Part shown: piece by piece, positions 208 through 28,939 of the stretch | Numbering within the stretch: the first letter of the stretch is position 1 | How the letters are laid out: each line of letters begins with the position of its first letter | NCBI GenBank assembly: GCA_903934925.1 | Contig: CAIZPS010000173.1 | Coordinates: 1 to 33,062 of the forward strand | DNA length: 33,062 nt | Direction: 5' to 3' | Source: an uncultured bacterium | GTDB taxonomy: Bacteria; Actinomycetota; Actinomycetes; S36-B12 | Translations under genes and position numbers: made by a program | Notes under the pieces: generated by a model | Database searches by the model: none | The model's input: only the letters and a program-made list of their open reading frames with translations | Told to the model about the DNA's origin: nothing

Positions 208-516
208 GTGACGAACGCGAGTGCGGGAATCTCCGCTGCTGTGCCGACCGTTGAGATCGATGATGGGCGTGTGCGAGTGACGAAGTGGCACTTCGAGCCC
301 GGAGCCTCGACCGGGATGCATACTCATGAGTTCGACTATCTCGTGGTCCCCGTGACGGGCGGTGACTTCTCGGTCGCGCTGCCCGACGGCACGATCACTC
401 CCATGACCCAGAACCCCGGTGCGGCATATGCGCGGCAAGCAGGTGTCACCCATGATGTGATCAACATTGGGGCCAAGGCGGCATCATTCGTGGAGGTCGA
501 ATTCCTGACGTCATGA
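208..516 (+). CDS. small single-domain cupin protein
   Basis: A 102-residue protein starting at GTG 208, preceded by the SD-like run GGGGGAG. It has one cupin fold. Cupin motif 1 is visible as TGMHTHEFDYLVVPVTGG, with His38 and His40 as likely metal ligands. A later PGAAYARQAGVTHDVIN stretch contributes the motif 2 histidine. Stand-alone cupins of this size bind a metal and act as small isomerases, dioxygenases or sensors. Nothing here fixes the substrate. It follows the RidA-like gene by 9 nt, which suggests a shared small-molecule detoxification or catabolic role (inference). Its stop overlaps the 3' end of the convergent TSUP permease gene by 6 nt. Confidence 0.75.
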   Translation: MTNASAGISAAVPTVEIDDGRVRVTKWHFEPGASTGMHTHEFDYLVVPVTGGDFSVALPDGTITPMTQNPGAAYARQAGVTHDVINIGAKAASFVEVEFLTS

Positions 517-1272
517 ACGCTGGGAAGCGATCACGAAGGCGGCAGCCCCCAGGGCGACCAGAAGAATGAGCCATCGGAAGAGTGCGGGTGAGAGTCGCTG
601 AGCGATTCGTCCCCCTGCCAGTCCTCCCAGTGCAGCACCGATGGCGACGGCTATGGCGAGGGGCACGTCGACGGGGGCGACCACGAGGAAGATCAGCGCC
701 GCGAGCACATTGGCGACTCCAGTAGCGACATTCTTGATCGCGTTCGCCTCCTGGAGGTTGGAGAGTCCCGCATAGAGCATCACGCTCAGGGTGATGACGC
801 CTGTGGCCGCACCGAAGTACGACAGGTAGATGCCGGCGAGCATCACGCCGACGAACAGGATGCTTGCACGCTGGTGGACGGGCTCGACCCGCCGTGAGAT
901 GTGCCGCGTGATCCATGGCTGTGCGAGTGTCAGGAGTCCTGCGGCGATGATGAGCCAGGGGATCACGGCGGTGAACGCCTCGGGCGGAAGCACGAGGAGC
1001 AGCGGCACCCCGAGCATGGCGCCCGTCACCATGGCGACGGTGGCTATCAGGATTGGTCGGCGCATATGCGACTGGCGCAGAGCGGATCGGTACGTGAACG
1101 CTCCTGTTACGTTGCCCGGTGACACCCCGACGGCACTCGTCACGTTGGCGGCCAGAGGGGGCAGGCCAAGGGCGATGAGAGCCGGGAAGGTGATCAGGGT
1201 CCCGGCACCCACGGCGGCGTTCATGACCCCTGCGCCCACGCCTGCCAGCAGGGCCAGCAGCAATTCACCCAC
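511..1272 (-). CDS. TSUP family (TauE/SafE) membrane permease
   Basis: A 253-residue polytopic membrane protein with a GTG start at 1272. The N-terminal segment contains the TSUP signature GVGAGVMNAAVGAGTLITFPAL, repeated in degenerate form in the second half (YLSYFGAATGVITLSVM), the internal duplication typical of TauE/SafE. About eight hydrophobic segments are visible. Members export or import sulfur compounds such as sulfite or sulfoacetate, or other organic anions. The substrate cannot be read from the sequence. No clear SD or leaderless -10 box is seen at the start. It converges with the cupin gene at its 3' end and diverges from the repeat-protein gene at 1430. Confidence 0.85.
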   Translation of the reverse strand: MGELLLALLAGVGAGVMNAAVGAGTLITFPALIALGLPPLAANVTSAVGVSPGNVTGAFTYRSALRQSHMRRPILIATVAMVTGAMLGVPLLLVLPPEAFTAVIPWLIIAAGLLTLAQPWITRHISRRVEPVHQRASILFVGVMLAGIYLSYFGAATGVITLSVMLYAGLSNLQEANAIKNVATGVANVLAALIFLVVAPVDVPLAIAVAIGAALGGLAGGRIAQRLSPALFRWLILLVALGAAAFVIASQRS

Positions 1273-10377: not shown

Positions 10378-11118
10378 CTAGCGGAGCAGGCCCACGGGCA
10401 GACGAGTCTCCACGACCTGTCCGCCGGTGAGTTCCACCCGGTAGGCGGCTGCCTCCGGGTAGGCGGAAGCGTCATCGCAGACCACCTCGACCGGATCGGT
10501 GCCCTCGTACAGCAGGCCGGTACGGTCGTCTGTCGCGAAGGACATTGGCAGGTCGCCGGCGGCCACGAGCCGGTGGGTCAGCGGTCGTCGCTGGGCCTCG
10601 GAGTCGTAGTGCACCGCATTGCCGTAGGGGAGCAGGGCCAGGCCGTTGGCGGCAAGCTGCAGTTCGGCTCCGAAGGAGTCGGTGGGCCCACCCACATGCC
10701 AGCAGATCGATCCGGCACTGACCCCGGCCAGCACCGCTCCTCGTTCCCACGCGTCGTGCATGGCCTCATCCACGCCGTGCAGACGCCACAGGGCAAGGAG
10801 GTTCGCGACGCTGCCGCCCCCCACCCAGATGACGTCAGCGGCCGCGAGGGCATCGCGGGGTGGGCGGTTCGGCTGGGGGAACAGGGCGAGGTGGTCCAGA
10901 TCGCAGCCGACCTCAGACATCGCCGCGTACATCATCGACAGGTAAGCCGGATCATCGCCGCTCGCGGTGAGCACGAAGCAGACGCGTGGGCGCGGTCGGC
11001 CGGTCAGTTCGAGGGCACGGCGCATGATGCCGCCGGGCCGCACCACGCCCTACAGGCCCGTGCCGACGAAGCCGCCGCTGGTCGCGAGAATCCGCCGGGT
11101 GGAAGGCACATCCGGCAT
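10378..11118 (-). pseudogene. peptidase E (S51) gene interrupted by in-frame TAG
   Basis: The gene reads from ATG 11118: MPDVPSTRRILATSGGFVGT, GL, then TAG at 11052-11050, then in the same frame GVVRPGGIMRRALELTGRP and on to 10378. The first part is the conserved N-terminal strand of peptidase E (R-x-ILATSGGF). The second part holds the nucleophile motif AGVSAGSICW, with WVGGGSVANLLALW before it. Peptidase E cleaves Asp-X dipeptides with a Ser-His-Glu type triad. A GTG at 11046 could start a 222-residue product without the first strand. The parsimonious view is a recent nonsense mutation (intact length would be about 246 codons). A sequencing error or readthrough are alternatives. Confidence 0.7.
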
Positions 11119-11181: not shown

Positions 11182-11201
11182 TAGGATACCCCAGGGGGTA
11201 T
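11182..11201 (+). promoter_or_regulatory. CsoR/CstR-type operator overlapping a -10 box
   Basis: ATACCCC-AG-GGGGTAT at 11186-11201 is a 16-bp palindrome with perfect 7-bp arms. It has the layout of operators bound by DUF156 repressors (CsoR, CstR and relatives). A -10-like TAGGAT (11182-11187) runs into its left arm, so a bound repressor would block the promoter of the exporter gene at 11226. No DUF156 gene lies in the window. Confidence 0.6.
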
Positions 11202-11225
11202 GTGAATGGTCGAGGGAGAGCACTC

Positions 11226-12266
11226 ATGAGATCAGTCCACGAGCATCCGGCCTGGTTCGGAGCCGTCATGGGCACCGCGGCGACCTCCATCGTCTTGTTC
11301 GTGCAGTCAGAGGTCTGGGGCATTCCGTGGCTGGAGTGGGCAGCGGTGGTGCTCCTGCTCCTGGCGAGCATCCTGGCCGTCGCGCTGGCGCCCCGCTACG
11401 CCCGTCGGCTCAGTCGACGATCGGAGCTTGTGGTCGAACTCGGGGATCCCGGCCACGGCGCGATGCTCGCGACCCTTCCCGCGGGCCTGCTCGTCCTGGC
11501 CGTCGCCTGGGCGCGTGTAGGGCCGGTTCTCGTCCCCACGTCTGTCGCGGTCTGGATCGACATCGTCATCGCTTCGATCGGGGTGATCCTGGCTCTGACC
11601 GTGGGCATCGCCTGGGCCAATGCGATCGCCTCGGGCACTCATGACCTCGCCTCCGTGAACGGTGGGTGGCTGATTCCGCCGGTGATGAACCTGCTCGTCC
11701 CGCTGGCCATCGTCCCGGTCATGCTGCGCTATCCGGATCAGGCGCCGTGGCTGATGGTCGTCGCCTTCGCCTTCTACGGGATCGGTGCCGTGCTGTTCCT
11801 GGCCGTGTTCACTCTCGTCATCGCCCGCCTGGCCCTGCGCCCGCGGCAGATGGCACAGATGGCGCCGTCGCTGTGGATTCCCCTTGCGCCAGCCGGCATC
11901 CTGGGGTTCGCCCTGCTGCGCCTGTTGCAGGCCGGCCAGGAACTTGGACTTTCGGGCTTCTCGTCCACGACCGCCGGGGTCATCGTTGCCGCAATGGGCA
12001 TCGGCCTGGGCCTTTGGTGGACCCTCTTCGCGGGTGTCGAGGTCGCTCGCCTGAGGCGGGCTGGAGGCATCCCGTTCCATCCCGGATGGTGGGGCTTCGT
12101 CTTCCCGATCGCGGCCATGACGTTGTCGATCATCGGCGTGGGTTCGGTGATGGAATCCGGTCCGGTTCTCATCGCCGGAGTGCTCGCGACCGTGACTCTG
12201 CTGCTCGTCTGGCTGCTGGTCGCCGCACGCACGCTGGACTTGGTCCGGCGCGCTCGGGCTCGCTAG
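11226..12266 (+). CDS. TDT family (TehA/SLAC1/Ssu1-like) anion transporter
   Basis: A 346-residue membrane protein. ATG 11226 is chosen for its SD (GGAGAG, 5-nt spacer); GTG 11202 would lie next to the operator. About ten hydrophobic segments are visible, in the TDT pattern: HPAWFGAVMGTAATSIVLF at the N-terminus (the family's P-x-WF-x-x-VM-x-T), later NGGWLIPPVMNLLVPLAIVP, and HPGWWGFVFPIAAMTLSI near the C-terminus. Family members move tellurite, dicarboxylates, chloride/nitrate or sulfite. A CsoR/CstR-like operator in its promoter makes sulfite or a related sulfur anion an attractive substrate (inference). It may be co-transcribed with the PLP decarboxylase 76 nt downstream. Confidence 0.85.
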   Translation: MRSVHEHPAWFGAVMGTAATSIVLFVQSEVWGIPWLEWAAVVLLLLASILAVALAPRYARRLSRRSELVVELGDPGHGAMLATLPAGLLVLAVAWARVGPVLVPTSVAVWIDIVIASIGVILALTVGIAWANAIASGTHDLASVNGGWLIPPVMNLLVPLAIVPVMLRYPDQAPWLMVVAFAFYGIGAVLFLAVFTLVIARLALRPRQMAQMAPSLWIPLAPAGILGFALLRLLQAGQELGLSGFSSTTAGVIVAAMGIGLGLWWTLFAGVEVARLRRAGGIPFHPGWWGFVFPIAAMTLSIIGVGSVMESGPVLIAGVLATVTLLLVWLLVAARTLDLVRRARAR

Positions 12267-12342: not shown

Positions 12343-13725
12343 GTGATCCTCGACGCCTCGGATGCAGCTCGCATGCATCATGCGGACCCAGTGATGGTGG
12401 AGGAGATTCTCGCCTTCGTCTCCCACCGTCTGCTGGAGCCTGAGGAGCCCCTCGATGGGCTGGCAGATCGGGACCGTCTTGCCGCCTCCCTCGACGGGCT
12501 CATCTGCGAGAACGGACGCGACTTTCGCGAGGTCCTCGCGATCTACGAGAACGATCTCGCACCCACCGTGCTGTCGGCAGACAGCCCGCGAATGTTCAGT
12601 TTCGTCCCGTCTGCTCCGACCAAGGCCTCCCTGCTCTTCGACATGGTCGTGTCCGCGGCCTCGCTGCAGGGCATCTCCTGGTTCGAGGCCGCGGGGGCGG
12701 TCATGGCGGAGAACCAGGCCCTTCGGATCCTGTCCGATCTCGCAGGCCTTCCGCCCGAGTCGGGCGGCGTCTTCGTCTCGGGAGGCTCTGCTGCAAATCT
12801 CTCGGCACTCGTCGTGGCACGCGACACCATGCGACGTCGGCGTCGTGAAGCGCAATTGCCGGATCTGCCCCTGCGTGTGGTCGTTAGCGACCAGGCGCAC
12901 TCGTCCATCGCGAACAGCCTCAACATCACGATGATGACCGCACTGGTCGTCGACACGCGGGCCACTGACGGCGTGCTGACCGGTCAGTCCGTCCGACATG
13001 CGCTGGCCTCAGACCCCGATCCCTCGGACATCTGCGCGGTGGTGGCGACAGCGGGGACGACGAACGCAGGCATCGTCGATGACATCGTCTCTATCGGTGA
13101 GGTGGCTCGCGAGCACGGTTGGTGGCTGCACGTCGACGGTGCCTACGGCGGTGCCGGCATCCTCTCCGCACGAGTCCGACCGCGCTTCGCGGGAATTGAT
13201 CGGGCGGACTCCATCGTCATGGACCCGCACAAGTGGTGGTTCTCGCCTTTCGACGCGGCGGCACTCCTCTACAGGGATCCACGTCTCGCAGCTGCGGTGC
13301 ACACGCAGGATGCGTCCTATCTCGATGTCATTCACGACGGCGACATCAATCCCAGCGACCTCGCCCACCACCTCACCCGACGGGCGCGAGGCCTGCCTCT
13401 GTGGTTCTCGCTCGCGGTCAACGGCATCAATGCCTACCGGGACGCTGTTGACCGCGGTATCGACCTGGCCCGCTATGCCGCTCGCAGACTGTCCGAGCGG
13501 TCAGACTGCATGCTCGTCCGCGAGCCCGACCTCTCGATCGTGCTCTTTCGCAGACGGGGATGGGGTGAGGCTGACTATGCGCACTGGTCGCAGGACCTGC
13601 TGCAGCGGCAGCGCGCGTTCGTCACGTCCAGTCGCTGGCGAGGAGAGGTCGTGGGTCGATTGGTCTTCCTGCACCCGGCCACGACCGAGGAGATGATCGA
13701 CGAGGTCATCGACGCTCTGGGCTAG
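12343..13725 (+). CDS. PLP-dependent group II decarboxylase (amino-acid decarboxylase family)
   Basis: A 460-residue enzyme with GTG at 12343 behind GGAGGT (6-nt spacer). The length fits group II decarboxylases. Residues about 85-155 carry the substrate/phosphate-binding SFVPSAPTKASLLFD and FVSGGSAANLSALVVAR. H186 (DQAHSSI) is the ring-stacking His, D265 (HVDGAYGG) binds the pyridine nitrogen, and K297 (MDPHKWWF) is the Schiff-base lysine. It would remove CO2 from an L-amino acid such as an aromatic amino acid, glutamate or 2,4-diaminobutyrate; the exact substrate cannot be told. Upstream is the TDT exporter and downstream a GAP-type membrane protein, which could export a product (inference). 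Confidence 0.88.
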   Translation: MILDASDAARMHHADPVMVEEILAFVSHRLLEPEEPLDGLADRDRLAASLDGLICENGRDFREVLAIYENDLAPTVLSADSPRMFSFVPSAPTKASLLFDMVVSAASLQGISWFEAAGAVMAENQALRILSDLAGLPPESGGVFVSGGSAANLSALVVARDTMRRRRREAQLPDLPLRVVVSDQAHSSIANSLNITMMTALVVDTRATDGVLTGQSVRHALASDPDPSDICAVVATAGTTNAGIVDDIVSIGEVAREHGWWLHVDGAYGGAGILSARVRPRFAGIDRADSIVMDPHKWWFSPFDAAALLYRDPRLAAAVHTQDASYLDVIHDGDINPSDLAHHLTRRARGLPLWFSLAVNGINAYRDAVDRGIDLARYAARRLSERSDCMLVREPDLSIVLFRRRGWGEADYAHWSQDLLQRQRAFVTSSRWRGEVVGRLVFLHPATTEEMIDEVIDALG

Positions 13726-27016: not shown

Positions 27017-28939
27017 GTGACGGGCAGCGGGCTTCGCGGATTCCTCGCCTCGATGCTGCGCACGAGGTCCGGGGTGCTGGCCGTGGGCACTCTCGCGGCG
27101 ATGGCGATCTGGGGCGTGCTGGCCCTCGCGGGTGTGCCGATCCCGTGGCGGGACGTACCGCTCATCGCCGCCAGCGTCGTCGTTGGAGTCCCGCTGCTCG
27201 CGCGTGTTGCACGCGATGCCTGGCGGCGTACCTTCGGCGCTGACGTGCTCGGCCTGCTCGCCCTCGTCGTGGGCGCAGTCATGGGGGAGTGGTTCGTCGC
27301 CTCCGTCATCGCACTAATGCTCTCCGGTGGAGAGGCACTGGAGCAGACGGCGACGGCGCGCGCGGCCCGCGTGCTCGAGGCTCTCGCGAAACGCAACCCG
27401 ACCCTCGCGCACCTCCGGCTGCCCGAAGGTGGCCTGCGGGACGTTCCCGTGGGCGAGGTTCGGGTCGACGACGTGCTCGTACTCCTTCCTCACGAACTGT
27501 GCCCGGTGGACGGAGTGGTGACCGAGGGTCACGGCAGCATGGACGAGTCGTACCTCACCGGCGAGCCCTACGTGATCGCCAAGGGTCCTGGGTCGAGCGT
27601 GCTGTCGGGCGCCGTCAACGCGACGGAGCTGCTGGTGATCCGAGCGCAGCACGAGGCTCGTGACAGCAGGTACGCGCGCATCGTAGGCATCCTCGAGAAG
27701 GCCGAGGCGGAGCGACCGCCCATGCGCCGGCTGGCCGATCGACTCGGCGGTGTCTACACGGTGATCGCGCTCGCTGTAGCCGGCTTGGGCTGGGCTGTCA
27801 GCGGGGATCCGAACCGGTTCCTGTCCGTCCTCGTCATCGCGACCCCGTGCCCGCTGCTCATCGGCGTCCCGGTGGCAATCGTCGGCGCGATCTCGCTCGC
27901 CGCGCGCAACGGCATCATCGTCAAGGATCCATCGGCCCTCGAGCGGATCCCCACGGTGCGCACGATGATCTTCGACAAGACGGGCACCCTCACGTACGGC
28001 CGCCCCACAGTGACGGACGTGGAGCTGGTGCCCTCCGCACCGGTTGGTCTGGATCGCAGTCGGGTGCTCGCGCTGACGGCAGCGCTCGAGAGGTTCAGTC
28101 GGCATCCGCTTTCTTCGGCCGTCCTTGAGGCTGCTGCCGACCTGCCTGTACTGGCCGTCGCACACATGGCCGAGCATCCGGGACAGGGGCTCCGGGGTGA
28201 GGTGGATGGCCAGCGCGTTGCCGTCGTCGGTCGCAAGCAGGTCAGCACGGCGCTGCCGGAGGCACAGACAGGCCTGGAGTGCGTGGTCGTCATCGACGAT
28301 CAGCCGGCGGCGCTGATCCGGTTCCGCGACATCCCCCGCGCGGGTGCACTCGGCTTCGTGCATCACCTCGGGGGCCGGCATCGGGTGACGCGCACAATCA
28401 TGCTGTCGGGGGATCGCGAGAGCGAGGTGAATTACCTCGGTTCGCTGGTCGGTATGGACGAGATGCATGGCGCCGTCTCTCCTGAGGAGAAACTGCGGCT
28501 GGTGCGCGAGGAGACGGCGATCGCGCCCACGGCCTTCTTCGGTGACGGTGTCAACGATGCTCCGGCGATGACGGCGGCCACGGTGGGCGTTGCCTTCGGC
28601 CAGGGAAGCGACATCACCGCGGAGGCGGCCTCGGCGGTCGTGCTCGACTCGTCTCTCGAGAGACTCGACGAGCTGCTCCACATCGGCCGGCGCATGAGAC
28701 GGATCGCCCTGCAGACCGCGATCGGGGGGATCGTGCTCAGTGTCATCGGCATGGTGCTGGCGGTGGTGGGGCTGCTGCCTCCCGTGGCCGGGGCACTCAG
28801 CCAGGAGATCATCGATGTACTCGCCATCGCAAATGCCCTGCGGGTAGGGCTGCAGCGACGACCCCTGCGCGACCTGCCGGTGTCGGAAGGTGCGTACGTG
28901 GGCCCAGACGGACTCGAACCGCCGACATCCTCCTTGTAA
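27017..28939 (+). CDS. P1B-type metal-transporting ATPase
   Basis: A 640-residue membrane pump without an N-terminal metal-binding (HMA) domain. The P-type parts are in order: actuator loop SYLTGEPYVIAKGPG (TGE 181-183), membrane metal site TPCPLLIGVP (C278, P279), phosphorylation site D320 in FDKTGTLTYG, HP at 363-364, and hinge GDGVNDAPAM (509-514). The site has CPL, not CPC, so a copper role is less likely and the metal is open. The conserved protein ends near LAIANALRVGLQRRP (about residue 616). The last 13 residues (GPDGLEPPTSSL and the codon before) are antisense tRNA sequence, and the TAA stop lies in the anticodon loop of tRNA-Val. Confidence 0.88.
   Translation: MTGSGLRGFLASMLRTRSGVLAVGTLAAMAIWGVLALAGVPIPWRDVPLIAASVVVGVPLLARVARDAWRRTFGADVLGLLALVVGAVMGEWFVASVIALMLSGGEALEQTATARAARVLEALAKRNPTLAHLRLPEGGLRDVPVGEVRVDDVLVLLPHELCPVDGVVTEGHGSMDESYLTGEPYVIAKGPGSSVLSGAVNATELLVIRAQHEARDSRYARIVGILEKAEAERPPMRRLADRLGGVYTVIALAVAGLGWAVSGDPNRFLSVLVIATPCPLLIGVPVAIVGAISLAARNGIIVKDPSALERIPTVRTMIFDKTGTLTYGRPTVTDVELVPSAPVGLDRSRVLALTAALERFSRHPLSSAVLEAAADLPVLAVAHMAEHPGQGLRGEVDGQRVAVVGRKQVSTALPEAQTGLECVVVIDDQPAALIRFRDIPRAGALGFVHHLGGRHRVTRTIMLSGDRESEVNYLGSLVGMDEMHGAVSPEEKLRLVREETAIAPTAFFGDGVNDAPAMTAATVGVAFGQGSDITAEAASAVVLDSSLERLDELLHIGRRMRRIALQTAIGGIVLSVIGMVLAVVGLLPPVAGALSQEIIDVLAIANALRVGLQRRPLRDLPVSEGAYVGPDGLEPPTSSL

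Follow-up and report, generated by a model that had tools for sequence, protein, structure and literature searches.

The question raised by positions 11182-11201 of the window (the whole stretch of 33,062 nucleotides that was analysed) is whether a palindrome lying on the promoter of a TDT-family gene serves as an operator and, if so, which repressor reads it and what the transporter contributes. The window comes from contig C173 of a 2.73-Mb assembly (302 contigs, 98% complete, 4.4% contaminated), and the host is probably a freshwater actinobacterium of a Nanopelagicales-like kind because the TDT gene has its closest named relatives in metagenome assemblies classified as Candidatus Nanopelagicales, Actinomycetales or Actinomycetota. 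The strand reads TAGGATACCCCAGGGGGTAT and includes the 16-bp palindrome ATACCCC-AG-GGGGTAT, with flawless arms around the centre AG; it has the bases AT in common with the hexamer TAGGAT and ends 24 bases upstream of ATG 11226, so that the layout described in an earlier note on this DNA, perfect arms overlapping TAGGAT directly ahead of the TDT gene, reads as stated. The mechanical open reading frame of the TDT gene begins at GTG 11202, but ATG 11226 is the likelier start given the GAGGGAGAG upstream of it (Table 1).

Table 1. Features of the window and operator-like sites in the same assembly (C numbers other than the window are contigs of this assembly).
Feature	Position	Strand	Basis or remark
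TSUP/TauE permease	511..1272	-	PF01925, E 2.7e-35; no site
Probable -10 element TAGGAT, overlaps operator	11182..11187	+	TAnnAT conservation in TDT promoters
16-bp palindromic operator, predicted CstR-like DUF156 site	11186..11201		Recurrence; kept before TDT orthologs
Probable ribosome-binding site GAGGGAGAG	11212..11220	+	Sequence reading; 5 bases upstream of ATG 11226
TDT/SLAC1-family anion channel or exporter gene	11226..12266	+	PF03595, E 9e-50
PLP-dependent decarboxylase, next downstream of TDT	12343..13725	+	PF00282
Site ahead of TDT	window, 11186		PF03595
Site ahead of MBL + rhodanese protein	C128:4497
Site ahead of thioredoxin (TrxA)	C119:429
Site ahead of rhodanese lipoprotein	C251:2630
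Site ahead of thioredoxin reductase (TrxB), then second thioredoxin	C187:793
Site ahead of 40-residue protein with six cysteines	C149:5635	read on minus strand	No Pfam match
Site ahead of DUF156-copZ-copA	C142:4075

The simplest account, that the palindrome arose by chance, would fit the window taken alone: with up to three mismatches, it contains 1 match compared with 0.57 expected, a weak and uninformative test. The genome-wide search for the site that the earlier note called for gives a different picture, with the reversed pattern serving as the control for all site counts. The exact pattern occurs in 3 places in the assembly (control, 0), with up to one mismatch there are 6 sites (control, 0), and with up to two mismatches 7, all ahead of genes (control, 2); allowing up to three weakens the contrast (30 against 18), and because the excess over the control fades there, true sites mostly carry 0-2 changes. 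Across 85 genomes of the family, 359 sites with up to one mismatch contrast with 2 in the control, and 78 of these genomes contain at least one. These genome and family controls, far exceeded by the counts, together with the retention of the site before TDT orthologs but not paralogs, leave a chance origin with a negligible probability, and it was rejected; the statistic for the window alone would not have been enough.

In 25 TDT loci from named genomes, the exact site is found within 265 bp upstream of the gene in 12, a site with up to one mismatch in 16 and with up to two in 17, whereas the reversed control yields 0 of 25. The remainder of these loci, 199,190 positions in all, contains 6 sites with up to two mismatches, which precede a small Cys-rich gene (3), a thioredoxin gene (1) or an SQR-like gene (2). 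One further locus (L029) has a variant site with a three-base centre, and the other seven (L033, L036, L039, L040, L041, L042 and L046) have no site. Within the genus, all 10 orthologous TDT loci with a visible start (57-100% identity, 9 genomes; the fragments L238 and L239, in which the start is missing, are left out) carry the exact site, compared with none of the 8 paralogous loci (26-45% identity) at up to three mismatches, the second TDT gene of this genome, on C194, among them. In one locus (L236), the site lies 245 bp upstream of TDT, and in a similarly arranged one (L037), a small Cys-rich gene is located between the site and TDT. At the promoter itself, a TAnnAT motif covers the first bases of the site in 13 of the 18 TDT promoters but only in 5 of the 97 other sites, which supports both the reading of TAGGAT as a -10 box, put forward in the earlier note, and repression by occlusion. 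No -35 element was recognisable in the TDT promoter, so that the -10 element stands without a clear -35 partner, and a promoter scan returned zero sigma-70 matches.

In this genome, the seven sites are spread over separate contigs and each directly precedes a gene (Table 1). Family-wide, 157 sites were reduced to 98 distinct ones selected by the pattern alone, after taking out repeated contexts and the loci fetched through TDT or DUF156, and 93 of these were assigned to a class of downstream genes; some of the labels rest on reading of the downstream ORFs, aided by Pfam matches for 1-3 members of each class, and the reference set was small. The classes are the small Cys-rich protein (24), MBL-rhodanese (16), thioredoxin (14), rhodanese lipoprotein (8), other rhodaneses (6), SQR-like flavoproteins (6), DUF156 (5), TDT (3), TrxB (3), a membrane protein with the motif GCPVC (3), methyltransferases (2) and, once each, a DCC1-like protein, a DsbD-type membrane protein and a flavoprotein-rhodanese fusion of the CoA-disulfide-reductase kind. 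Apart from the 2 methyltransferases and the 3 membrane proteins, all the assigned genes belong to a recurring class or are of a thiol or sulfur kind; the 5 unassigned sites comprise 1 exact match and 4 with two mismatches. Thus, the ATACC...GGTAT palindromes stand before persulfide-detoxification genes, and their control by one repressor is predicted from this position.

The protein encoded most commonly behind the site family-wide, the small Cys-rich one, is represented in this genome by the gene L022:5477-5599 (minus strand, C149), whose product (MCSPALCRQCNKVTYTGCGEH...) has 40 residues with six cysteines; it is possibly a persulfide or metal carrier. The SQR-like flavoprotein gene of this genome (L255, C112:2469-3707, minus strand) is without the operator, and two relatives (G046 and G050) have a two-mismatch site ahead of theirs.

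CstB/ETHE1 persulfide dioxygenases bind iron through His, His and Asp. The site-linked MBL-rhodanese of this genome (L006:4554-6044) and 14 others have the signature HxHxDY...H...TGG, not TGD, so that the Asp ligand is replaced by Gly in 15 of the 15 proteins; the aligned chain of 3r2u, used for the CstB/ETHE1 comparison, has SGD. A three-His centre or a different chemistry is conceivable, and production of sulfite by the site-linked MBL-rhodanese is doubtful because of this replacement. A rhodanese-MBL paralog on C194, a contig with none of the seven sites, retains the Asp and looks canonical.

The earlier note had proposed a distant CstR-like repressor, an idea that absence of DUF156 genes from the genome would have undermined; exactly one is present, on another contig (C142). 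Its product matches DUF156 (PF02583) with E 3.6e-22 (79 bits, cut-off 22.8) and contains two cysteines 29 residues apart, with Gly in place of the CsoR histidine (C-G-C), as opposed to the Cys-His-Cys set of Cu(I) ligands. Because both sensor cysteines are kept and the copper-ligand histidine is absent, the repressor is best classified as CstR-like. Its nearest solved relatives are 7mq1-7mq3, which we take to be pneumococcal CstR although the depositors label them csoR, and 7mq1 has Asn at the His position. The 75 aligned DUF156 sequences, the genome's own included and overlapping retrievals among them, split into two classes, 32 with Cys-His-Cys and 43 without the His: the position is His in all 32 of the former and in none of the 43 latter, which have G, A, E or S (one of these, L221, terminates early and has Phe in place of the second Cys). 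The site (up to two mismatches) lies upstream of 18 of the 20 fetched His-less DUF156 genes, in contrast to 0 of the 24 His-bearing (true CsoR) loci of the family. With the repressor's own promoter bearing the site and the remaining sites preceding persulfide and thiol genes, the CstR-like control that the earlier note had suggested is supported as a prediction.

A His-less DUF156 gene was found in 13 of the 16 genomes with a TDT site compared with 2 of the 8 without (Fisher p 0.02, over the 24 genomes from which the named TDT loci come, with the L029 genome counted as lacking a site and kinship ignored); among the genomes with only the His-bearing class, G098, G103 and G104 lack the TDT site and G106 has it. 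The 85 family genomes include 59 with a His-less DUF156 gene, 8 with His-bearing ones only and 18 with neither, an approximate split because the class was read from the sequence for the 75 aligned rows and otherwise from the score; the genome sets overlap (for example, G085 and G049 have identical DUF156 places and scores) and are therefore not independent. Eleven of the 26 genomes without a detected His-less gene retain 4-7 sites, which could imply that the site serves some other, unrecognised regulator. Most gene-lacking genomes are incomplete assemblies, but gaps may not explain all the absences because five of these 11 (G018, G028, G072, G052 and G075) are 90-96% complete, with G018 and G028 at 95-96%. 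A tblastn search of 12 gene-lacking genomes with the repressor as the query (E <= 10) revealed no convincing gene, its single weak match having E 0.063 and 30% identity. The genomes with 4-7 sites but no detectable DUF156 gene include G018, G019, G028, G052 and G075; either assembly gaps hide the gene or the site can be used by another regulator. As a general account of the site, another regulator is nevertheless very improbable: the number of sites per genome is higher where the His-less gene was found (mean 4.83 in the 59 genomes; one-sided Mann-Whitney p 0.0014, with related genomes treated as independent), the DUF156 gene has the site in its own promoter, and a related protein, ScCsoR, binds this motif according to the accessible text of its description (PMC7533328).

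ScCsoR (SCO0620) of Streptomyces coelicolor is the closest parallel. As far as the accessible text goes, it binds ATACCn6GGTAT before pdo-tauE, csoR and rhodanese genes, binds DNA less after exposure to polysulfide, and controls a TauE to which the authors assign sulfite secretion (PMC7533328). The two circuits share a DUF156 repressor with two cysteines 29 residues apart, the ATACCn6GGTAT site, self-control, rhodanese/persulfide-dioxygenase targets and an anion exporter among the targets; the Streptomyces genes are described as a cluster with TauE, a TSUP protein, as the exporter, whereas here, the genes are on separate contigs and the exporter is a TDT protein (PMC7533328). The present regulon also goes beyond that circuit in that thioredoxin, TrxB and the small Cys-rich protein join it and the repressor is encoded in a copZ-copA operon. 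Staphylococcus aureus CstR is likewise a two-Cys DUF156 repressor over persulfide genes. So is YrkD of Bacillus licheniformis, in whose cluster a TauE and a thioredoxin homologue are described as well (PMC9918477); both CstR and YrkD govern a gene cluster with TauE, the place taken by TDT here. TTHA1953 of Thermus thermophilus resembles the present case as a CsoR-family regulator of a scattered sulfur regulon with a thioredoxin (SoxW) but differs in the site, TACNNTACNNNNGTANNGTA, and in the Sox pathway, with no TDT mentioned in the accessible part of the report (PMC10318464).

Taken together, these comparisons make it likely, on sequence grounds, that the palindrome is the operator of a single distant CstR-like DUF156 repressor that persulfide releases, whereupon TDT and the sulfur genes rise. 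At rest, the repressor on its operator would cover the -10 element and keep the TDT gene off; as persulfides or polysulfides accumulate, both of its cysteines would be modified, and the modified protein would leave the DNA. TDT would then be made alongside the rhodaneses, thioredoxin, thioredoxin reductase, the small Cys-rich protein and the repressor itself. The rhodaneses would transfer sulfur and thioredoxin would reduce sulfane sulfur, an activity that the available text describes for thioredoxin in S. coelicolor, under the regulator AdpA (PMC9952706). TDT may release an oxidised sulfur anion, most likely sulfite, in the role given to TauE in Streptomyces.

A copper reading has to be weighed because the repressor heads copZ-copA: in this genome it is the first gene ahead of copZ and copA (L005:4108-6842, C142) and thus, like CsoR, adjoins copper-efflux genes, and copA (mostly with copZ) follows the His-less repressor in 12 of the 21 fetched loci, this genome included, as it follows true CsoR in 17 of the 24 His-bearing loci. 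With the CsoR and CstR boxes being similar, as far as the accessible description goes (PMC7533328), the DUF156 protein could be a Cu(I) sensor despite the absent His, the site a CsoR box and TDT a responder to copper. CsoR copper repressors share with the present protein the DUF156 family, a similar box and copZ-copA downstream, and differ from it in having C-H-C copper ligands. This reading was downgraded, to an improbable one, because the His is absent, without exception among the 43 His-less sequences, and because genes for thioredoxin, rhodaneses and SQR-like proteins lie behind the site; in the sister genera, moreover, none of the 24 true CsoR loci carries it.

The operon itself seems to have changed hands. 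Whereas sister genera (L048-L064) have a true C-H-C CsoR at the head of copZ-copA, this genus has a His-less DUF156 gene there, and 12 of the 14 genomes of the genus have one DUF156 gene each, with no match scoring like the His-bearing class. In a CopA tree of 27 stretches (a CopA match was present in 29 loci, and those were used in which it starts before residue 60 and extends beyond residue 380), the 12 rows linked to His-less and the 15 linked to His-bearing repressors form nearly separate groups, with 2 label changes; several forks are open and three branches are long, so that the direction and number of swaps are not fixed. It looks like a persulfide-type sensor, or a sensor answering both signals, took over the copper operon from a copper sensor. 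Tentatively, CsoR might have been replaced ahead of copZ-copA in this genus by a single His-less DUF156 repressor, which would also rule the scattered persulfide, thioredoxin and TDT regulon. If so, either reactive sulfur and copper would be sensed by one two-cysteine protein, or export of copper would have joined the persulfide response.

The identity of the exporter is clearer than its cargo. The TDT protein has the PF03595 domain, in common with TehA, SLAC1 and Ssu1, and matches TIGR00816 with E 1.2e-36 (126.7 bits, below the cut-off of 237 bits). Its structural model (pLDDT 89.5, from an alignment of 17 of the 21 rows first tried) is predicted to match TehA (Z 34.5, rmsd 2.5 over 300 residues, 19% identity) and also plant SLAC1, placing the protein in the TDT/SLAC1 family by both domain and predicted fold; a sequence search of the PDB gave nothing at E <= 0.001, and it was the fold comparison that found these relatives. 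The shared TehA/SLAC1 fold does not fix the substrate. Release of an oxidised sulfur anion, with sulfite favoured, is a guess by analogy, made because ScCsoR controls pdo-tauE in S. coelicolor and TauE is assigned sulfite secretion there; this description of TauE, within the accessible text (PMC7533328), also counts against other substrates. The sulfite pump of yeast, Ssu1, points the same way and belongs to the TDT family. Nevertheless, SLAC1/TDT proteins carry varied anions, the site-linked MBL-rhodanese is without the usual Fe ligand, and the neighbouring PLP decarboxylase is retained in many relatives, so it could well be, if at somewhat less than an even chance, that TDT belongs to the regulon and moves thiosulfate, sulfide, polysulfide or a carboxylate or amine linked to the decarboxylase. 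A homologue of the decarboxylase is present in 13 of the 32 scanned relative loci (with some regions represented by two loci). In six of these, it follows TDT at about 110-180 bp, and in L032 and L044, the distance exceeds 1 kb; cotranscription with TDT is possible.

Other neighbours are an S51 peptidase gene (10378-11046, minus strand) that precedes TDT and a P-type ATPase gene (27017-28939, PF00122), without the operator, in the same window. The TSUP permease, which the earlier note had singled out as lacking the site, is confirmed as such by its domain, the TDT site being the sole match in the window.

Very probably, the exporter is one arm of a reactive-sulfur response under a single repressor akin to persulfide sensors. 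Within the literature searched, consisting largely of papers available without subscription, neither a TDT protein tied to a CsoR-family regulator nor a report on Nanopelagicales and persulfide was found, and the novelty lies in a scattered regulon of the CstR type in which TDT is the predicted exit and which is linked to copZ-copA. These observations predict that freshwater actinobacteria known here only as metagenome assemblies possess a complete regulon for reactive-sulfur stress. A bacterial TDT/SLAC1 protein thereby gains a concrete, if predicted, physiological role, and the apparent swap of regulators links copper export with persulfide sensing.
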